From Lentzea tibetensis (GTDB lineage: Bacteria > Actinomycetota > Actinomycetes > Mycobacteriales > Pseudonocardiaceae): 64,000 nucleotides of DNA. Shown piece after piece: positions 5,999 to 15,750 of the stretch; the first letter of the stretch is position 1, and each line of letters opens with the position of its first letter. The notes beneath the pieces were generated by a model. The model was given only the letters and a program-made list of their open reading frames with translations, was not told the DNA's origin and did no database searches. The position numbers and the translations under genes were made by a program. The stretch is taken from NCBI RefSeq assembly GCF_007845675.1, contig NZ_VOBR01000006.1, forward strand, positions 370,198-434,197, read 5' to 3'.

Positions 5999-6121
5999 GA
6001 GAGTCCCCCTCACTAATGGGTGAAAAGACAAACCGAGGGGACGCTACGTATTCGATCGGCGGCGCAACACGTCCGAAAGTCGGTAGTACGGTCGTCGAAA
6101 AGCCAGTTCGGGAGGTCGTCA

Positions 6122-7615
6122 ATGGAGACGCAAACCCACCCATTAGGGACGAGCAGGCCACCGCTGGACGTCGCTGACCTGCCCCAACCCGAAGACGTGT
6201 TCAAGGTCCGGAAGCTCGGGCCCGTTCAGGTGATCCAGTTCGTCATCGGCCCGAGCCTCATCGCGCTCGGCATCTCGATCGGCAGCGGCGAGTGGCTGCT
6301 CGGACCGCAGGCCGTCGGCAAGTACGGATTCGTCGGCGTCGGCTGGGTGATCACGGTCTCGGCGCTGCTGCAGACGTTCTACAACGTCGAGATCTCGCGG
6401 TACGTCATCGCCACCGGTGAGGTGCCGGTCGTCGGGTGGGGAAGGGTGCCACCCGGCTGGAAGTTCTGGGTGCCTTTCTCACTCGTGGTCTTCTACTTCG
6501 CGTTCATCTTCGGCGGCTGGGCGGCGGGCGCCGGACAGGGACTCTTCGCGTTGGTCGCGGGACGCGTCTACCGGCCGGACGAGATCGAGTACGTGCGTCT
6601 GCTCGGAATCGGCCTGCTCGTCGTCGTATTCCTCATCACCGTGATGGCCAAGAAGGTCTCGCGTGCTCTGGAACTCACCAACTGGGTGCTGGTCGGCGCA
6701 CTGCTGCTGATCCTGCTCGGCGTGACGGTCGCGATCGTGCCGTTCGCCGTGTGGCTGGACGGGATCAAGGGCCTGGTCACGTTCACCGCGCCACCGGCGG
6801 GCATCACGGCGACCCAGCTCGGCGCGCTCGCCGGGTTCACCGCGCTCGCGTCCGGGCTCAACTGGTACGCGATGAACCACTACCGCGACAAGGGTTACGG
6901 CATGGGCCACCGGGTCGGCTACATCTCCGGCATGCGCGGAGGCAAGCAGGAGATCAAGCCGGTCGGCGTCACGTTCCCGGACACGCCGGAGAACCGGTCG
7001 CTCTGGAAGCGCTGGTACAAGCTGCTGCTGATCGACCAGTGGGCGGTGTTCTTCGTCGGCGCGATGCTCGGCATGCTCCTGCCGACCGTGCTCATGGCGC
7101 ACGTCGTGGACGTCAGCGGAAAGCAGCCGACCGCGGCGAACGTGCCGACGTTCTCGGCCGAGCAGCTCGGCGCCATCTACGGCCAGGCCATGTTCTACCT
7201 GATGCTGATCGTGGGCGTGCTCATCCTGTTCTCCACGCAGCTCGGCATCTTCGAGGCGCTGGTGCGCAACTTCACCGACGCGGCGCACGCCGTGTCGCCC
7301 CGGATCAGGAAGCGGATCGAGGACGACCCGCGCAAGTTCTACTACCCGTTCATGCTGCTGGTGCTCGCGGTCATCGCGGGCGCGATCCACCTCGCACTTC
7401 CCGTTGAACTGGTGCAGATCTCGGCGAACATGTCGAACTTCGGCGCGCTGATGTTCCCGTTCGCCTTGATGTACCTGAACTCCAGGCTCCCGAAGCCCGC
7501 CAGGCCGCACTGGTGGCACTACGTGATCCTGGCGCTGAACGTCGTGTTCTTCGGGTTCTTCTTCGTCAACTTCGTCTACGAGTTCTTCACCGGCGCCGCG
7601 CTGGTGAAGTTCTGA
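6122..7615 (+). CDS. Nramp-family divalent metal transporter-like membrane protein
   Basis: A 497-residue integral membrane protein with about 11-12 hydrophobic segments. The first helix carries G-P-S-L-I-A-L-G-I-S-I-G-S-G-E-W, a longer version of the Nramp signature in which a D-P-x-N metal motif is normally found; here the classical DPGN is replaced by GSGEW, so the transported ion may not be Mn/Fe. This matches the broad 'Nramp family' group in actinobacteria with unknown substrate. The ATG at 6122 follows a GGGAGG. It is transcribed divergently from the M6 protease and ends 1 nt before the convergent TfoX-like gene. Confidence 0.75.
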   Translation: METQTHPLGTSRPPLDVADLPQPEDVFKVRKLGPVQVIQFVIGPSLIALGISIGSGEWLLGPQAVGKYGFVGVGWVITVSALLQTFYNVEISRYVIATGEVPVVGWGRVPPGWKFWVPFSLVVFYFAFIFGGWAAGAGQGLFALVAGRVYRPDEIEYVRLLGIGLLVVVFLITVMAKKVSRALELTNWVLVGALLLILLGVTVAIVPFAVWLDGIKGLVTFTAPPAGITATQLGALAGFTALASGLNWYAMNHYRDKGYGMGHRVGYISGMRGGKQEIKPVGVTFPDTPENRSLWKRWYKLLLIDQWAVFFVGAMLGMLLPTVLMAHVVDVSGKQPTAANVPTFSAEQLGAIYGQAMFYLMLIVGVLILFSTQLGIFEALVRNFTDAAHAVSPRIRKRIEDDPRKFYYPFMLLVLAVIAGAIHLALPVELVQISANMSNFGALMFPFALMYLNSRLPKPARPHWWHYVILALNVVFFGFFFVNFVYEFFTGAALVKF

Positions 7616-7953: not shown

Positions 7954-10548
7954 TCACCCCGCCCCGAAGCACACGAAGCCGACACCGGCCGCGTAACCGA
8001 GGTCGTCATCCCGTTGCACGGCAGCCAAAGCCTCGGCGGGCGCCATCCCGGACGCGAGCCGCTGGTGCAGGTCGACCATGAGCGGCGCGGTGCCGTCGGT
8101 GGGCACCGGTACCACGGGCGCGATCAACGTGCGGGTCCCCAGCCCGAGAAGGGCGGCGGTGAACCCCATGAGCTCGTCCCCCGGACGCACCGCCGACTGA
8201 CCGGTGTCGCACGCGGACAGCACGACCAGCGAAGGCGGCGCGTGCAGGCGTTCGAGGTCGTAGACGGTCAGCGGACCGTCGGCCAGTTCCAGGGCGGAGA
8301 ACAGCGGGTTGTCGACGCGGAAGCTGCCGTGCGCGGCCACGTGGGCGAGCCGGGCGCCGTCCATCGCGTCGGCGACCGCGGACACGGTCGCCGCGGCACC
8401 GACGAGCACCTTGTTGTCCGGGACGTGCGCGCTGATCGCCTCGATCTCGGCGGGGGCCGCCGCCAGCCGGGGACCGGCGGCCAGCACGGAGGAACCGGCG
8501 CCGCCCGCGACCGAAGAGGCGCGCAGCCACACCGTCGCCGACGGCGAGACGGTCACCTGGCGGTTGAGCACCGCCCACGGCAGACCGTTCAGTGCGCCGG
8601 TCGGCACGACCACGAGCGACCGGCCGTCGATGCGCCGCTGCAGCGGCGCGAGCAGCCGCTCGCCCAGCGCCTTGGCCGCGTGCGCGGCGGAAGCCCGTGC
8701 CACGGAACGGTTCGGCGTGTCCGGAGGCAGGGTCACCAGGCGGTGCAGGGCGAAGCGCAGCAGGCGGATCTCCCGCACCGCGCCCTCCACCTCGCCGAGC
8801 CGGTGCAACGACGCGCGCCCGTCGACCACGACGACCGCGAGCAGCGCGGAGTCGTACTGGACGAACTCGACCAAGGCCGATGAACCCAGCGCGCCCGCGA
8901 GGCGGGACAGCGACGGCGGCCGGTGGACCACTCCCCCACCCGACGCCTGGCGGGTCAGGTCGCGCACGCGCTGTTCGAGCCGGACGAGGCGCTGGCGCAG
9001 CGCGTTCGACGGCCGTCCGGCCAGCACAGCGGCCTCCAGGTCGCCGGACACCGAGCGCAGCTCGCCCATCGCGTCCTCGAGGCGGGGATCGTCGGGCGGC
9101 GAAACAGGAGTCATGCGCAGCGCACCGGCGCGCCAGCTCTCCGCCCACGACAACACCTGCGAAGCAGCACCGGAAGCGACCGCCAGCCCCAAGCCCTCCA
9201 GCGCGAGCGCCTTGCCCTGGGCGCCGCTGAGCGCGCGGAGCTCCGCCGCGCCGAGGGACACGCGGTACTCGTCCAGCAGGGAAAGACCGCGTCGCAGCGC
9301 CGACGCCGTGCCGCGCACGTTGCCGGAGAGCTTGCGCCGCAACGCTTCCGCGTACCAACCGTGCACGCGGTGCGAGGCCGCGCCGCGCTGGCGGGACCGC
9401 GCCGCGACGGCCAGCTGGGACTCGGCGCGACGCACGTCGCCCATGTCCAGTGCCACCTGGCCCGCGTCGACCCGCGCCTCCAGTGCCGACATCCGCCAGC
9501 CCAGCGACTCCAGCTCGTCGGCGACCTTGATGATCGCGGTGCACAGCACGCGCGTGCGTTGCCCGGACAGGACCGCGGCGCGCAGCTCGAGGTAGCGCGC
9601 GGACGCCTCCCAGACGTCGCGCTTCTCCCGCCGGAACAACCCGCGCGCCTCGGCGGCGAACGACGCGGCGCCCGCGAGGTCGTTCTCCTGCAACGCGACC
9701 TGCGCGCGGTAGAACAGCGACTCGGACAGGCCGTGGGTGAGCTTCGACGACCGCATCTCGGCGATCACCCGGTCCGCGGTCGTCCGCGCCTCGTCGAGCA
9801 ACGGCACCGACGCGAGCAGCTCCAGCCGGTTCACCAGCAGCTGCGGCCGGGGCACGTCGAGCCGCCGGTACTCGTCGTCCGCCTGGGAGAACATCGTCAG
9901 CGCGCGGGGGATGTCGCCGGCGCGCTGCGCGGAGATGCCCGCGTTCCACCGCACGTCCGCGACCGCCAGCTCCTGCCCGAGCGACGCGTACAGCTCGGCC
10001 GCGCGCGAGAAGTCCTCGTCCGCGCGGCGCAGACCACCGCAGTAGGCCCTGACCAGGCCCCGGTTGTTGCGGGCCCGCGCCTCCCCCAGCGCGTCACCGG
10101 TGCGCCGGGCCGCCTCGATCGCGTGGTCGTAGTCGCGCAACGCGTCGGTGTACCGGCACAGGTAGTGCGCGACGACACCGCGTTGCATGCGCGCGTGGTC
10201 GGCGTCCTCACCGGAGAGCTCGGGCAGCGCCGAGTCGATCAGCTGCAACGCCTGCCGGTGCCTGCCGAAGTGCGACAGCACGTACGCGAGGCTGATCGAC
10301 GCCAGTGCCGCCAGCCGGGCCGACCCGATGGACTCCGCTATCTGAATCGAACGACGCAGGTGCCTTCGCGCGCCGGCGAAGTCGTGCAGCTCGCGCAACG
10401 ACAACCCGATCGCGCGTTCGGCGACGGAAGCCTCCTCCAGGTCGCCTGAGGAACGGGTGCGGCGGAGCACCTGGCGGGCCATCTCGATGGCCGCGCGGGG
10501 GTTGCGCTGCCTGGCCTCCAGCGCGTCCTCCGCGGAGATATCGGTCAC
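7954..10548 (-). CDS. TPR-CHAT caspase-like protease
   Basis: An 864-residue cytoplasmic protein. Residues 1 to about 480 form tandem tetratricopeptide-type helical repeats (for example A-L-R-D-Y-D-H-A-I-E-A-A-R and A-R-A-R-N-N-R-G-L). The last 280 residues are a CHAT domain, a caspase/separase-related cysteine protease: catalytic His740 in HVAAHGSF and Cys780 in VLSACDTG are both present, as is the substrate-loop GDELMGF. It should therefore be catalytically competent. It is divergent from a subtilisin-like protease, with a perfect palindrome in the shared promoter. TPR-CHAT proteins often act as triggered proteases in defence or programmed death; that role here is inferred from the family and neighbours. 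Start is GTG at 10548. Confidence 0.88.
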   Translation of the reverse strand: MTDISAEDALEARQRNPRAAIEMARQVLRRTRSSGDLEEASVAERAIGLSLRELHDFAGARRHLRRSIQIAESIGSARLAALASISLAYVLSHFGRHRQALQLIDSALPELSGEDADHARMQRGVVAHYLCRYTDALRDYDHAIEAARRTGDALGEARARNNRGLVRAYCGGLRRADEDFSRAAELYASLGQELAVADVRWNAGISAQRAGDIPRALTMFSQADDEYRRLDVPRPQLLVNRLELLASVPLLDEARTTADRVIAEMRSSKLTHGLSESLFYRAQVALQENDLAGAASFAAEARGLFRREKRDVWEASARYLELRAAVLSGQRTRVLCTAIIKVADELESLGWRMSALEARVDAGQVALDMGDVRRAESQLAVAARSRQRGAASHRVHGWYAEALRRKLSGNVRGTASALRRGLSLLDEYRVSLGAAELRALSGAQGKALALEGLGLAVASGAASQVLSWAESWRAGALRMTPVSPPDDPRLEDAMGELRSVSGDLEAAVLAGRPSNALRQRLVRLEQRVRDLTRQASGGGVVHRPPSLSRLAGALGSSALVEFVQYDSALLAVVVVDGRASLHRLGEVEGAVREIRLLRFALHRLVTLPPDTPNRSVARASAAHAAKALGERLLAPLQRRIDGRSLVVVPTGALNGLPWAVLNRQVTVSPSATVWLRASSVAGGAGSSVLAAGPRLAAAPAEIEAISAHVPDNKVLVGAAATVSAVADAMDGARLAHVAAHGSFRVDNPLFSALELADGPLTVYDLERLHAPPSLVVLSACDTGQSAVRPGDELMGFTAALLGLGTRTLIAPVVPVPTDGTAPLMVDLHQRLASGMAPAEALAAVQRDDDLGYAAGVGFVCFGAG

Positions 10549-10571
10549 CGCGCCACTTTATCCGCTGTGGT

Positions 10572-10585
10572 AGCTTGATCAAGCT
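10572..10585. promoter_or_regulatory. 14-bp palindrome in the CHAT/S8 divergent promoter
   Basis: AGCTTGATCAAGCT is a perfect 14-bp palindrome located 24 bp upstream of the CHAT start and 38 bp upstream of the chosen S8 protease start, inside a 75-bp divergent spacer. A symmetric site in this position is a good candidate operator for a dimeric regulator that controls both halves of the module. No regulator for it is proven. Confidence 0.5.
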
Positions 10586-10623
10586 CGGTCGGGGTGCCCG
10601 TCAACGCTGCTAGTGAGGCCGTT

Positions 10624-11823
10624 GTGTCGAAATCGCCGGAACGTGCGGAACTTTACGAAAGAGCTTTTGACCAGCTCATCGCCGAAGACAAGCGCATTAG
10701 TCTGCACGCCGAGCAGGGACGTGAATTTCTTTTCCGCCCCAGCGAGTTGTTGGTCAATGAAGTAGATCGCGACCGCGTGATCCGAAAGTTGCGGCAAAAC
10801 GACTTCGTGGTCGAAGTCGGTAAGGGATTCGCGGGAATGGCCCGGCTGATCCTCCCGCGCAACCCCGACGACATCCCGCGCATCGTCCGCCTGCTGCGCG
10901 ACCCGCGTCAGTGGCCCGGCGAGCGCGTCCCGTTCGTGCAGCCGCACCACGTCGTGGTCGGCCACGGCGGCAACATCCACGGCCACCCCGGCGACCGCCC
11001 GAAGCCCTCGGACCCGTTGAAGGAGCCGAAGCCGGACGAGCGCAACAGCAAGGTCGTCGTCGGCATCATCGACACGGGCATCTCCAAGTCCGCGACCAAC
11101 GACCACGGCGGCTGGTTCAAGGGCCGGTACTCCCAGGAGCTCGACGACGTCGACAAGGCGTACAGCGCCGGCGACTTCTTCGCGCTCCAGGGCGGGCACG
11201 GCACGTACGTCGCAGGCTGCGTGCAGCAGGCCGCGCCGGGCGTCTCGTTCGACCCGGAGGTCGCGCTCGACCCGAACGGCCTCGGCGACGAGGAGACGCT
11301 GTGCGCGAAGATCACTGAACTGGGTGACCGCGTCCACATCCTGAACCTCTCCCTCGGCTGCTTCACCGAGGACGACGTGGCGTCCGAACCGATGCGCCGC
11401 ACGATCAACGCGCTCAAGAGCGACGTCGTCGTGGTCGCGTCGGCGGCCAACCAGGGCACGACCCGCCGGAGCTGGCCCGCGGCGCTGCGCAACGTCGTCG
11501 CGGTGGCCGCGCTCGCGCAGAACGGCGACGGCTCGATCGTCCCCGCCTGCTACAGCAACCACGGCGACTGGGTCGACCTGTGCGCCATCGGCAACCGCAC
11601 CAGCACCTACCTCAAGGGCGAGTGGCAGCTCCCCGGTGAGCCCGCGCCGACGCCGTTCGCGCTGTGGGCCTACTGGGCGGGCACCTCGTTCGCCGCGCCG
11701 TACGTCTCCGGGGCCATCGCCCAGAAGATGAGCGACGACGGCATCAGCGCGCCACAGGCGCGCGACAAGCTCCTCGCATCCGGGCCGGAGTTCCATCCCG
11801 GTTATGGAGTTTTCATCAAGTAG
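10624..11823 (+). CDS. Subtilisin-like (S8) serine protease, cytoplasmic
   Basis: About 399 residues with the complete S8 triad: Asp150 (GIIDTGI), His192 (GGHGTYVAG), Ser355 (AGTSFAAPYVSG) and the oxyanion Asn276. It has no signal peptide and no transmembrane segment, so it should act in the cytoplasm. The first 130 residues (K-S-P-E-R-A-E-L-Y-E-R-A-F onward) are not a standard subtilisin propeptide. GTG at 10624 is chosen because a GAGG lies 6 nt upstream; the longer GTG at 10594 lacks a clear ribosome binding site. It heads the plus-strand half of the CHAT module and is followed 54 nt later by a sigma factor gene. Confidence 0.9.
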   Translation: MSKSPERAELYERAFDQLIAEDKRISLHAEQGREFLFRPSELLVNEVDRDRVIRKLRQNDFVVEVGKGFAGMARLILPRNPDDIPRIVRLLRDPRQWPGERVPFVQPHHVVVGHGGNIHGHPGDRPKPSDPLKEPKPDERNSKVVVGIIDTGISKSATNDHGGWFKGRYSQELDDVDKAYSAGDFFALQGGHGTYVAGCVQQAAPGVSFDPEVALDPNGLGDEETLCAKITELGDRVHILNLSLGCFTEDDVASEPMRRTINALKSDVVVVASAANQGTTRRSWPAALRNVVAVAALAQNGDGSIVPACYSNHGDWVDLCAIGNRTSTYLKGEWQLPGEPAPTPFALWAYWAGTSFAAPYVSGAIAQKMSDDGISAPQARDKLLASGPEFHPGYGVFIK

Positions 11824-11877
11824 ATGTATCTGGCGGGCAACCCGGCGCTCCGCATGTTGTGAACGCAAGGAGTGGAC

Positions 11878-12504
11878 GTGACCTCTGCATCCCCGATCGC
11901 CGCGCTGGTCAGCGCGGCGGCCGAGGGCGACCAGCGGGCGTGGAACGAGATCGTCGATCGTTACACGCCGCTGGTGGTGTCGGTGATCTACAAGCACCGG
12001 CTGCGTCCCGCGGATGCCGCGGACGTCAACCAGACGCTGTGGCTGCGCCTCGTGGAACAGATCGGCAGGCTCCGCGAGCCGGAGGCACTGCCCGGCTGGA
12101 TCATGACGACCACCCGCAACGAGTGCCTTCGGGTGCTGCGCGTTCAGCAACGGACTCACCTGTACGACCCGCTGTCGGCGGAGGAGCCGGTCGGCGAGGC
12201 GGACATGGCGACGGACCTCGACGAGGAGATGCTCGCCGTCGAGCGCCGTCAGGCGTTGCGCGACGGGTTCCGCGAGCTCACCGAGCAGTGTCAACGCCTG
12301 CTGACCAAGCTGATGACCGATCCACCGCCGAGCTACCAGACCGTCAGCGAAGAGCTCGCGATGCCGATCGGCAGCATCGGGCCGACGCGCATCCGGTGCC
12401 TCGGCAAGTTGCGCAAGACGCCCGCGATCATGCGGTTCCTGGGGGCACCGTCAACAGGGGGGAGAGGAGGTGTGTTGGGTGCGGCAGCACGGATGGGACA
12501 GTGA
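11878..12504 (+). CDS. ECF-type RNA polymerase sigma factor
   Basis: About 208 residues with a sigma-70 region 2 (A-W-N-E-I-V-D-R-Y-T-P-L-V and D-A-A-D-V-N-Q-T-L-W-L-R-L) and region 4 (S-Y-Q-T-V-S-E-E-L-A-M-P-I-G-S-I-G-P-T-R). The GTG at 11878 is chosen because an AAGGAG at 11867-11872 stands five bases before it; a GTG at 11872 overlaps that ribosome binding site. The 3' end overlaps the next gene by 26 nt, so translation is probably coupled. It likely directs transcription of the module or a wider regulon, a function not shown by sequence alone. Confidence 0.88.
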   Translation: MTSASPIAALVSAAAEGDQRAWNEIVDRYTPLVVSVIYKHRLRPADAADVNQTLWLRLVEQIGRLREPEALPGWIMTTTRNECLRVLRVQQRTHLYDPLSAEEPVGEADMATDLDEEMLAVERRQALRDGFRELTEQCQRLLTKLMTDPPPSYQTVSEELAMPIGSIGPTRIRCLGKLRKTPAIMRFLGAPSTGGRGGVLGAAARMGQ

Positions 12505-12937
12505 CGAGGCGATGCTCGAAGACCTGCGTGACGCGTTGATGGAACCGGCGGCGTCGTCGTCAGAGGTGCCGCCGGAGTTCTACGAGGCGGCGCGCGCGGC
12601 GTTCACCTGGCGCACCATCGACGCCGAGCTCCTGGCGATCAGCTACGACTCCGTGCTCGACGACGACCTGATGGCGCGGGCCCGGTCCACCATGACCGCC
12701 CGGCAGCTGGTGTTCGACGCGGACGGCGTGTCGTTGCAGGTCGAGGTCACCGAGGCCGGCATCACCGGCCAGCTCATGCCGCCGCGCAGCGCGCGGGTGG
12801 CGCTGGTGACGCCGGACGGCGTGGGTGAGGAGGCCGACACCGACGAGCTCGGCTGCTTCCTGATGGGGCCGCCCCCGCGCGGCCCGATCCGATTCCGGCT
12901 CGACGATTCGTCACTCACCGATTGGGTTTGTCTATAA
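12479..12937 (+). CDS. Sigma-coupled small beta-domain protein (possible anti-sigma or adaptor)
   Basis: About 152 residues. A helical N terminus (D-E-A-M-L-E-D-L-R-D-A-L, then P-P-E-F-Y-E-A-A-R-A-A-F-T-W-R-T-I-D-A-E-L) is followed by a beta-rich part resembling a carboxypeptidase-regulatory-like sandwich. The helical motif is one I associate with proteins encoded next to ECF sigma factors in CHAT or protease loci, but no ZAS zinc motif or transmembrane helix is present, so it is not a classical anti-sigma factor. GTG at 12479 lies 8 nt after GGAGG; the GTG at 12470 overlaps that site. Overlap with the sigma gene argues for stoichiometric partnership. Confidence 0.75.
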   Translation: MRQHGWDSDEAMLEDLRDALMEPAASSSEVPPEFYEAARAAFTWRTIDAELLAISYDSVLDDDLMARARSTMTARQLVFDADGVSLQVEVTEAGITGQLMPPRSARVALVTPDGVGEEADTDELGCFLMGPPPRGPIRFRLDDSSLTDWVCL

Positions 12938-13038: not shown

Positions 13039-13848
13039 GTGTCTGCAGTGGTCGACCAAGTCAGCTGGGTACCGGAAGGCGTCAACGTCGACGTGCCGAG
13101 TTCCGCGAGGATCTACGACTACCTCCTCGGCGGCGGGCACAACTTCGAAGCGGACCGCAACACCGCCGAAGCGCTGATCAAGGTGCTCCCGGTGCGCGAC
13201 ATGGCCCGCCGCAACCGTGCTTACCTGCGGCGTGTCGTGCTCGAGCTGGCGGACATGGGCATCACGCAGTTCCTCGACCTCGGCTCGGGCATCCCGACCG
13301 TCGGCAACGTGCACGAGATCGCGCACGAGGTGAACCCGGACGCCCGCGTGGTCTACGTGGACTTCGAGCACGTGGCGATCACGCACGCCGAGCTGATGCT
13401 CGCGAACGAGCCCAACGTGACGGCCGTGCTCGCCGACCTGCGGGTACCGGAGACCGTGCTGAAGCAGGCCTCCACGCTGCTCGACTTCAGCAAGCCGGTC
13501 GGCCTGCTGATCGTGGGCGTCCTGCAGTTCATCCCGGACGCCGACGACCCGTGGCAGATCATCGAGCAGTACGCCGAGGCGCTGGCACCCGGCAGCTACG
13601 TCGCCCTGTCGCACTTCACCGCGGACTCCATGCCCGAGGCGATGGCCGCGGGCAAGGAGATCTTCGCCAGGACCGCCGAGCCGATCACGCCGCGCACGCT
13701 CGAGCAGGTGACCCAGATGCTCCGCGGACTCGAGACCGTCGAACCGGGCATCGTGTTCACGCCGCAGTGGCGGCCGGAGTCGCCCGACGACGTCGGCGAG
13801 AACCCCAGCAGGGCCAACCTCTACGCCGCGGTCGGCCGCAAGCCGTAA
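13039..13848 (+). CDS. DUF574 / Methyltransf_19 SAM-dependent methyltransferase
   Basis: A 269-residue protein of the S-adenosylmethionine-dependent methyltransferase family that is much expanded in actinobacteria. The N-terminal S-S-A-R-I-Y-D-Y-L-L-G-G-G-H-N-F-E-A-D motif is diagnostic, followed by the SAM-binding FLDLGSGIPT loop and an acidic strand (V-V-Y-V-D-F-E). The substrate is unknown. The GTG at 13039 is used; a GTG nine bases later is equally possible. The stop lies 3 nt before the diguanylate cyclase gene, indicating an operon; these methyltransferases are often found next to signalling genes. Confidence 0.9.
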   Translation: MSAVVDQVSWVPEGVNVDVPSSARIYDYLLGGGHNFEADRNTAEALIKVLPVRDMARRNRAYLRRVVLELADMGITQFLDLGSGIPTVGNVHEIAHEVNPDARVVYVDFEHVAITHAELMLANEPNVTAVLADLRVPETVLKQASTLLDFSKPVGLLIVGVLQFIPDADDPWQIIEQYAEALAPGSYVALSHFTADSMPEAMAAGKEIFARTAEPITPRTLEQVTQMLRGLETVEPGIVFTPQWRPESPDDVGENPSRANLYAAVGRKP

Positions 13849-13851
13849 CCC

Positions 13852-15750
13852 GTGCCCGAACAGCCGTCCAACATCGCGAGACGCTGGGCGACGGTCCTCA
13901 TCGAGAGCGCGTACTCGCCGATCTTCCGCGGCAGGCTCACGCACATCCTCGACGAGCACGTCGCCCGGCTTTCGCGCGCGCTCGGCACGGAGAACGACAC
14001 CGAAGGCGACTCGGCGGCCGACGCGGTCGGCGAGTGGCTCGTGGCGTCGCGGTTCACCGGCCCGGACAGCCTGAAGGGCACCATCGAGACGCTCGGCGAG
14101 CTCGGCCGCGGCCAGCGCCTGATGACCATGCTCGGCTCGCTGTCGGCCGGCTACGTCCGCGCGACCCGCGACCAGCTGTTCCACCAGCAGGAGAAGGTCA
14201 AGAACTCGCTGCTCAAGGCCGTCGAGGACGCGCAGCGGTCGTTGTTGGAGAGCGAGGCGCGGTTCGCGCGGGTGTTCGCGAGCTCCGGCGCGGGCATCGC
14301 GATCATGGACCTGGACGGCGAGGTCGTCGAGGTGAACCCGGCGCTCGCCGCGATGCTCGGCCACTCCGGCGAGCCGCAGCCGAAGCTCGTGTTCGCCGAC
14401 GCCGACCTGGCCGTGCTGTTCAACGACTGCCGCCGCCTGCTGTTCTCCGACGACGAGTCCGTCCGGCAGGAACGCGAGCTCAGCCGCGGCCCCGAGGACC
14501 GGCTGTGGGCGAACGTCGTGCTCTCGCTGCTGCGCGACGGCGAGGGCGAGCCGCGGTACTACATCGCGGTGATCGAGGACGTCACGGACCAGCGGATGCT
14601 GCGGGACGTGCTGCGGCGGCAGGCATCCACGGACATGCTGACCGGCCTGCCGAACCGGCAGAGCTTCGTCAACCGGCTGGAGGAGGTCATCGCCAGGGCC
14701 GGTCCCACCGACACGATGACGCTCGGCTACCTGGACGTCGACAGCGTCACGATCGTCAACGACGGACTCGGCTACGCCGCGGGTGACGCGGTGCTGCGCG
14801 AGGTCGCGCGCCGCCTCGGCAGGGTGCTGCCGGAGGCGGTGATCGCCCGCATCGGCGGTGACGAGTTCGTGGTGCTGGTGGAGGGCGCGCCGGACGTGTC
14901 CGCGCTGGCCGAGTTGATCGACGACGAGCTGGCCGAGCCGGTGTTCATCGACGGTCACGGCGTCGCGGTGTCCACGTCCATCGGGTTCGTGCACGGCACC
15001 GGCCCCGAGATCGACCCGGTCGCGCTGCTGCGTCGCGCGCACAGCACGTTGCGCCGCGCCGAGAAGGGCGGCAAGCGGCAGTGGGGCATCTTCGACCCGG
15101 TGCAGGACCTGGCCGACCGCACCACGTCCGCGCGGATCGCGTCGATGCCGGGCGCGTTCGAGAACGGCGACATCCGCATCGAGTACCGGCCCATCGTGCG
15201 GCTCTCCGACGGTGCTGTCGTCGCGCGCGAGGCGCAGCTGCGGTGGGCCGACCTCGGTCACGACGAGTGCGCCCGCTACGCCGAGACGCTGGGCCTCGCG
15301 TCCCGGATCGGCCGCTGGATGCTGCAGGAGGCGTGCTCGCTGGGCGAGCCCGTGCTGGTGCGCCTGTCACCGGACCAGTCGCGCGACCCGGATCTCGCGG
15401 CGATCGTGCGCAGAACGTTGCGCAACAGCGCACTCGGGCCGCTGTCCCTGCTGCTCGCGCTGGACGTGCGCGGCATGCCGGACGGCGAGGAGAACCTGGA
15501 AGTGCTGCACGACATGGGAGTCCGGGTGCTGCTGCACGAGTTCGGCGGCGGGTTCGCCGGACTGTCCTACGTGGACCGCAACCCGCTGTGGGGTGTGCGG
15601 CTCAGCGCTCCCCCGTCGGAACGTCTTGCGCGGCAAGGACTTGCCGGACTGGTTCCGCTGCTGCACGCCGCCGGGATCCAGGTGATCGCCGGACATCCGG
15701 CCGATCCGGACGAACACCGCGCGCTGGGCGTGGACCTGGTCGTGCGCTAG
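13852..15750 (+). CDS. PAS-GGDEF protein with degenerate EAL domain
   Basis: About 632 residues. Residues 1-120 form a helical sensor-like region; about 130-260 is a PAS domain (A-R-F-A-R-V-F-A-S-S-G-A-G-I-A-I); about 265-420 is a GGDEF domain with the intact signature ARIGGDEFVVL, so c-di-GMP synthesis is plausible. The C-terminal part has EAL-domain fold segments (E-Y-R-P-I-V-R-L, R-E-A-Q-L-R-W) but the EAL motif reads EAQ and the DDFG block reads HEFG. The phosphodiesterase site is therefore probably dead and may serve in binding or regulation. Cotranscribed with the methyltransferase. Confidence 0.88.
   Translation: MPEQPSNIARRWATVLIESAYSPIFRGRLTHILDEHVARLSRALGTENDTEGDSAADAVGEWLVASRFTGPDSLKGTIETLGELGRGQRLMTMLGSLSAGYVRATRDQLFHQQEKVKNSLLKAVEDAQRSLLESEARFARVFASSGAGIAIMDLDGEVVEVNPALAAMLGHSGEPQPKLVFADADLAVLFNDCRRLLFSDDESVRQERELSRGPEDRLWANVVLSLLRDGEGEPRYYIAVIEDVTDQRMLRDVLRRQASTDMLTGLPNRQSFVNRLEEVIARAGPTDTMTLGYLDVDSVTIVNDGLGYAAGDAVLREVARRLGRVLPEAVIARIGGDEFVVLVEGAPDVSALAELIDDELAEPVFIDGHGVAVSTSIGFVHGTGPEIDPVALLRRAHSTLRRAEKGGKRQWGIFDPVQDLADRTTSARIASMPGAFENGDIRIEYRPIVRLSDGAVVAREAQLRWADLGHDECARYAETLGLASRIGRWMLQEACSLGEPVLVRLSPDQSRDPDLAAIVRRTLRNSALGPLSLLLALDVRGMPDGEENLEVLHDMGVRVLLHEFGGGFAGLSYVDRNPLWGVRLSAPPSERLARQGLAGLVPLLHAAGIQVIAGHPADPDEHRALGVDLVVR

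Follow-up and report, generated by a model that had tools for sequence, protein, structure and literature searches.

The four-gene locus

The 64,000-nucleotide stretch of Lentzea tibetensis DNA analysed here (the window) belongs to a 9.36-Mb actinobacterial genome and carries a four-gene locus, in which the gene of a tetratricopeptide repeat (TPR)-CHAT protease faces, on the opposite strand, the genes of a subtilisin-type (S8) protease, an extracytoplasmic function (ECF) sigma factor and a small protein (Table 1). By the S8 protein, the nearest named relatives are Lentzea, with identity up to 81%. A preliminary description of this DNA gave a 75-bp divergent spacer and a 26-nt overlap between the sigma and small-protein genes, and both are recovered with the orthologue-consistent starts of the S8 gene (10624) and the small-protein gene (12479). 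The overlap measures 23–35 nt in 16 loci of Lentzea and Saccharothrix (gene-caller starts).

The CHAT protease matches Pfam PF12770 (E=2.3e-38) plus TPR_12, and the S8 protease matches Peptidase_S8 PF00082 (E=6.8e-23). The sigma factor matches Sigma70_r2 of Pfam (E=6.9e-13) and lies above the cut-off of the NCBIfam sigma70-ECF model, in agreement with its earlier assignment as an ECF sigma factor; its region-4 stretch is conserved across 14 rows. It is probably of the ECF54 type, an assignment made by gene context and not by sequence model. The small protein has no Pfam match above cut-off and no NCBIfam family. No export signal or membrane segment is obvious in any of the four proteins, the top 19-residue hydropathy being 1.65 (CHAT protein). 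For the S8 protease, which had been described as lacking an export signal, hydropathy likewise gives none, and the top 19-residue value near the N terminus is -0.14.

Table 1. Positions of the module genes and their features in the window (pLDDT, predicted local distance difference test).
Feature	Position	Strand	Length	Remarks
TPR-CHAT protease	7954-10548	-	864 aa	CHAT domain at residues 624-846 (~8011-8679); His740 and Cys780
Divergent spacer, CHAT start to S8 start	10549-10623		75 bp	TAGCTTG common to 16 of 16 aligned rows
S8 (subtilisin-type) protease	10624-11823 (longest open reading frame from 10594)	+		Asp160, His202, Asn286 and Ser365 counted from 10594; no export signal by hydropathy
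Predicted prodomain-like region of S8	10720-10959	+		Residues 43-122; pLDDT 82-92 in blocks 51-120; low-confidence linker next
Bipartite promoter-like element 5′ of sigma gene	11826-11854	+		GTATCT-N16-CTCCGCA; conserved spacing across loci
ECF sigma factor, probably ECF54-type	11872 or 11878 to 12504	+	208-210 aa
Small protein, candidate soluble anti-sigma factor	12479-12937	+	152 aa (155 aa from 12470)	26-nt overlap with sigma gene
C-terminal seven-strand beta-sandwich of small protein	12701-12901	+		Residues 78-144; predicted structure; sub-threshold PF13620 match in two homologues

Conservation of the module

Scanning genome contigs with the S8 protein gave the 16 loci above, 12 from Lentzea and 4 from Saccharothrix, and the order CHAT (reverse), S8, sigma factor, small protein is kept in every one of them; in L013, CHAT and S8 match as fragments. 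More widely, the small protein was matched in 23 of 150 genomes of the family, and its profile (A1) in 93 of the 296 genomes sampled for the class. Of 149 genomes sampled for the phylum, 12 gave a match to this profile, among them the own genome and three more that the class set already contained. With the sigma profile, 115 of the 296 class genomes gave a match at E<=1e-25.

Around the small-protein matches, 96 wider actinobacterial loci were read, counting a gene at E<1e-10 within 7 kb. They represent 16 of 26 places from the family search, 69 of 113 from the class search and 11 of 18 from the phylum search. Most of the weakest matches and several near relatives were left out, and since these loci were selected, the fractions that follow do not describe a random sample. 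A same-strand sigma gene lies 5′ of the small protein in 91/96 loci; 70 loci have CHAT, 66 have S8 and 59 have the complete set. Written as token strings, the 59 complete loci show 12 arrangements, two of them departing from simpler arrangements through an additional sigma or small-protein match. Such persistent grouping under a changing gene order is strong support for a joint function.

The genome of the window gives the same picture. It contains 7 CHAT, 44 S8, 81 sigma-region-2 and 4 small-protein matches, and all four small-protein matches adjoin a sigma gene and have a CHAT domain within 4 kb, three of them also an S8 gene. Arithmetic from 7 CHAT matches in 9.36 Mb gives a chance expectation of about 0.03 small-protein/CHAT pairs within 5 kb, so that the co-occurrence exceeds chance. 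Because each small-protein match comes with sigma factor and CHAT, the module is present in this genome in four versions, of which one, close to a contig end, has no found S8 gene. The four-gene set is a real, widespread and co-conserved module, and the lack of co-conservation that would have refuted the preliminary description is not seen.

The two proteases

The catalytic residues, described earlier as intact in the window, are kept throughout. His740 and Cys780 of CHAT and Asp160, His202, Asn286 and Ser365 of S8 are invariant in 11-row alignments. Alignments A5 and A6 were each built from 12 of the 16 Lentzea/Saccharothrix loci, A6 including both S8 copies of L012. The His/Cys pair is intact in 70/70 CHAT copies of the 96-locus set, and the Asp, His, Asn and Ser in 66/66 S8 copies. 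Among solved structures, the CHAT profile matched Csx29 chains at E=1.4e-4 over profile positions 744-824, and the CHAT protein of PDB entry 8rot scored higher than Csx29.

From its structure model, S8 looks like a pro-subtilisin with a prodomain-like N-terminal region. It shares this region and the subtilisin catalytic domain with pro-subtilisins and intracellular subtilisins, but differs from them in that the prodomain-like part comes without an export signal and the gene belongs to a set with CHAT and a sigma factor. In Saccharothrix tamanrassetensis, the module is followed by another S8 gene (L012:8857-10074), whose product shares 57% identity with the window S8.

The small protein as sigma partner

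In the AlphaFold2 model of the small protein, helices at residues 12-24, 35-61 and 65-74 precede the beta-sandwich. The mean pLDDT is 68.7 overall and 81-92 in blocks 81-150. Foldseek with this model returned no match at E<=0.001, and the sequence profile matched the biofilm surface protein 7dm0 (E=3.6e-7) over the beta part. From this match only the beta-sandwich type was accepted, and no known fold is assigned. Two homologues show sub-threshold matches to the carboxypeptidase-regulatory domain CarboxypepD_reg (PF13620), one at E=1.3e-4 (below the curated cut-off) and another at E=0.081. This domain is not a peptidase. No carboxypeptidase domain is detectable in the small protein itself, whose beta-sandwich is weakly like the non-catalytic regulatory domain.

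A variant occurs in another family. Next to the sigma relative L161 lies a gene for a 208-aa protein, and hhalign aligns the C-terminal half of this protein to the small protein with E=0.0093 but a probability of only 4.4. Five proteins of this type (A7), from 5 of 120 genomes of that family, each follow a sigma gene. The A7 profile aligns with the small-protein profile over 115 columns (E=6.3e-5, probability 64.6), and the A7 N-termini differ from that of the small protein. The N-terminal parts of two members match the NCBIfam anti-sigma model below its cut-off, L166 at E=0.0028 (residues 10-93) and L169 at E=0.0079 (12-120). In addition, L166 resembles RsrA (E=0.029), and one A7 member matches zf-HC2 (E=0.0093). 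Searching solved structures with the A7 profile gave no anti-sigma chain. We read the small protein and A7 as one putative family of proteins that partner sigma factors, with an anti-sigma domain still recognisable in a single lineage; on this reading the small protein is the partner of the sigma factor and probably acts as its anti-sigma factor. Its gene overlaps the sigma gene, as with soluble anti-sigma factors of the RsrA/ChrR type, and two of five A7 relatives weakly match an anti-sigma model, but the window's own type of small protein has no such match. A zinc-binding motif is usual in RsrA/ChrR-type factors, and it is not visible in the small-protein sequence.

Beside three sigma relatives (L150-L152), opposite-strand open reading frames of 57, 58 and 62 aa look by eye like the small protein reduced to its N-terminal helix.

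Co-divergence of the four proteins

Trees of the four proteins were compared over 58 rows (57 loci and the window, L051 and L137 having been dropped beforehand) by partial rank correlations of patristic distances. The sigma–small and CHAT–S8 correlations were both 0.54 and small–CHAT was 0.31, compared with 0.16 for sigma–CHAT, 0.11 for sigma–S8 and -0.08 for small–S8. In 83% of 1000 subsamples (60% of rows each), the three strongest links were those of the chain sigma – small – CHAT – S8. In the 24-row main gene order, where the small protein and CHAT stand at opposite ends, small–CHAT was still 0.38; across subsets, CHAT–S8 ranged from 0.54 to 0.71 and small–S8 from -0.23 to 0.04. These data support a small protein that tracks the sigma factor most closely and are consistent with the chain, less clearly in subsets. 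The correlations were rejected as proof of direct contacts, because shared descent, linkage and shared transfer give such values too and because subsets differ.

The promoter-like element

GTAT-N18-CTCCG occurs with fixed spacing within 160 bases 5′ of the sigma gene in 24/24 loci (the window, L003-L018 and L054-L060, which are related by descent), and a fuller form is found in 15 of them, 52 to 130 bases from the sigma start. No match appeared in 2400 simple shuffles. Autoregulation of the sigma operon would be the natural reading of this element. In L014, the GTGTATCTG part of the element is tandemly repeated 5′ of the sigma gene.

Beyond the operon, the full form occurs twice in the own genome and the control once, and 21 genomes of the genus contain 1-7 sites per genome vs 0-3 for the reversed control. 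Twelve regions with further sites were read. In 10 of them, the gene called next runs on the opposite strand; same-strand genes start 109 bases past the element in L208 and 1077 bases past it in L211. No regulon beyond the sigma operon emerged convincingly, and none is claimed.

Chromosomal setting

The modules share chromosomal neighbours, namely a phosphodiesterase cluster in 28/96 loci and a DUF5998 cluster in 27/96 (one representative of each was identified). Plasmid searches with the sigma factor at E<=1e-15 and with the small protein gave four records and one record (11.85 Mb, Nonomuraea), respectively. A Miltoncostaea plasmid has an S8 gene adjoining the sigma gene, and its gene table, which is incomplete, lists no CHAT gene, and a plasmid of Streptomyces NBC_01296 has the sigma gene among biosynthetic genes with neither S8 nor CHAT. 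Among phages, searched with the sigma factor only, one unannotated record matched, and no sigma-profile relative was confirmed in 28 candidate stretches of viral contigs. Shared chromosomal neighbours and few plasmid or phage records argue against a mobile defence system, and defence as such could still be a function. The setting looks chromosomal and not like that of mobile defence; the conflict or regulated-death setting named in the preliminary description is therefore not supported.

Discussion

Caspase-like CHAT proteases are common in bacteria, and few have a known substrate; to our knowledge, the best-studied one that does is Craspase. Its TPR-CHAT protease, Csx29, cleaves Csx30, an inhibitor of an ECF sigma factor (PMC10028731). 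Craspases cut Csx30 at non-conserved sites (PMC11106740), so that a conserved cut site need not be expected in the module described here. Like the type III-E CRISPR (clustered regularly interspaced short palindromic repeats) system Craspase/CASP (Cas7-11, Csx29, Csx30, CASP-sigma), the module combines an ECF sigma factor with a soluble protein encoded next to it and a TPR-CHAT protease whose His/Cys pair is intact. In contrast to it, no Cas protein is among the four module genes, and an S8 protease is added. Three of four neighbouring genes have non-Cas Pfam matches and one has no match, in a survey that covered genes and not CRISPR arrays. The small-protein profile found no Csx30 chain up to E=1 in a structure set whose content of Csx30 was not confirmed.

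The preliminary description had named no characterised system with exactly this gene set, which needs correcting in that the context is in print, as a prediction. ECF54 sigma factors of Actinobacteria have CHAT, subtilase and 'carboxypeptidase' domain neighbours (PMC8999054), and the sigma factor with regions 2 and 4, the CHAT gene and the subtilase gene are all present here. The proposal in section 3.3 of that source has proteases controlling the sigma factor without an anti-sigma factor. In the present data, by contrast, the small protein resembles a partner of the sigma factor, and no carboxypeptidase domain can be detected in it. Through its likeness to PF13620, the small protein is probably the 'carboxypeptidase' of the published context. 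Other caspase and peptidase systems have been described, one with an ECF sigma factor, and in the available parts of these sources our gene set does not appear (PMC8195603, PMC7159879). In EACC2/caspase systems with an ECF sigma factor and a TPR protein, the constant domains are EACC2 and TRADD-N, unlike in our gene set. In the open-licence literature, to which the search was mostly confined, no experimental study of the four genes together was found. Thus, the gene context is not new; as far as searched, the evidence for the small protein as sigma partner and probable anti-sigma factor, the association chain and the functional parallel to Craspase, apparently without CRISPR, are.

The best explanation in our view, held at somewhat under an even chance, is a sigma switch in the cytoplasm that is gated by proteolysis. 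In it, the small protein would be a soluble anti-sigma factor that keeps its ECF sigma factor inactive, until a signal felt through the TPR part switches the TPR-CHAT protease on. CHAT would then cut the small protein and free the sigma factor, by analogy with Craspase acting on Csx30, and the freed sigma factor may transcribe its own operon and perhaps a few other genes. S8 would be a zymogen kept inactive by its prodomain and would work with CHAT, either as its activator or as a downstream partner, the order of the two proteases being a suggestion. The observed basis is the conserved module, the intact catalytic residues, the pairing of sigma factor and small protein, the prodomain-like prediction and the promoter-like element before the sigma gene. 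Of the earlier interpretation, the co-conserved module is supported, a release of the sigma factor through proteolysis of the small protein would fit the comparative evidence best, and the conflict setting is not supported.

Several observations weigh against this switch. Confidence in the structure models is low for the small-protein helices and for the catalytic region of S8. The anti-sigma scores of the A7 members were 17.7 and 16.2 bits against a curated cut-off of 100, three of the five A7 proteins gave no match to that model, and neither did any of 17 A1 members, the window protein (P0004) included. As for gene content, in 18/96 loci neither CHAT nor S8 lies within 7 kb of the sigma–small pair, some of these loci being at contig ends; in L062, L081 and L099 the small protein follows S8 immediately, the sigma gene being absent from between them, and in L128 and L129 it stands alone at the cut-off used. 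Among 20 sigma-relative loci picked by eye for absence of a nearby small-protein match, 13 showed no recognisable small protein. Moreover, in the 24-row main order sigma–S8 (0.39) exceeded sigma–small (0.34), and in 12 loci of the second order sigma–small was -0.15.

Two other arrangements of the same parts were considered. In the idea published for ECF54, the sigma factor itself is the substrate that the proteases degrade, which keeps the system off without any anti-sigma factor, and the small protein has an accessory role as adaptor or sensor. Besides being proposed in print, this would suit the 13 sigma relatives lacking a recognisable small protein and the sigma–S8 value of the main order. 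However, over all 58 rows both proteases are tied to the sigma factor far more weakly than the small protein is, and the 'carboxypeptidase' of this idea is probably the small protein, with its sub-threshold match to a non-catalytic domain in a homologue. We regard it as unlikely. Alternatively, CHAT could remove the S8 prodomain in a two-step cascade, and the free S8, not CHAT, would destroy the small protein. The strong CHAT–S8 link, the prodomain-like prediction and the three loci with the small protein directly behind S8 speak for such a cascade, which we nonetheless find doubtful, as small–S8 shows no positive correlation overall and at best 0.04 in subsets, and in 10/96 loci the sigma factor, small protein and CHAT occur with no S8 found nearby.

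Very improbable, in our judgement, is a conflict or regulated-death system with CHAT and S8 as toxic effectors and the sigma factor and small protein only controlling their expression. PADLOC defence models do match CHAT (BovA, E=7.7e-6) and S8 (a subtilase model, E=1.4e-14; IetS, E=1.9e-7), and bacterial conflict systems with peptidase cascades have been described (PMC7159879), but the shared chromosomal neighbourhoods, the few plasmid or phage records and the viral-contig result run counter to it.

A broader proposal, offered tentatively, is that the module corresponds to the Craspase circuit without CRISPR and may even represent its ancestral type. It would be a pathway widespread in Actinobacteria, in which a caspase-like TPR-CHAT protease coupled to a cytoplasmic pro-subtilisin cuts members of a new soluble anti-sigma family and so starts a transcriptional response. 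If the switch exists, many of the 93 sampled class genomes with the small protein would hold a natural relay from protease to transcription, and the sigma arm of Craspase would gain a chromosomal counterpart outside CRISPR. The published view of ECF54, with no anti-sigma factor and a carboxypeptidase neighbour, would also change.

Neighbouring genes and further loci

Beside the module, a 531-aa hydrophobic protein with no Pfam family at E<=0.1 is encoded at 6020-7615 (+) of the window. After the module, 13039-15750 (+) encodes an S-adenosyl methyltransferase (Methyltransf_19) and a PAS-GGDEF-EAL protein, each matched in 13/16 orthologous loci. The genomes of L062 and L081 have a sigma relative without a recognised small protein elsewhere (L163 and L164). 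In 27-28 of the 96 loci (within L068-L140), a phosphodiesterase and DUF5998 neighbourhood, partly with DUF3071 and thymidine-kinase-like genes, surrounds modules of several families. A large protein with NAGPA and metallophosphatase domains is encoded 5′ of the sigma gene at L071:3417-7193, with cluster relatives in L068, L073 and L078; all four loci contain the sigma factor and small protein and lack CHAT.

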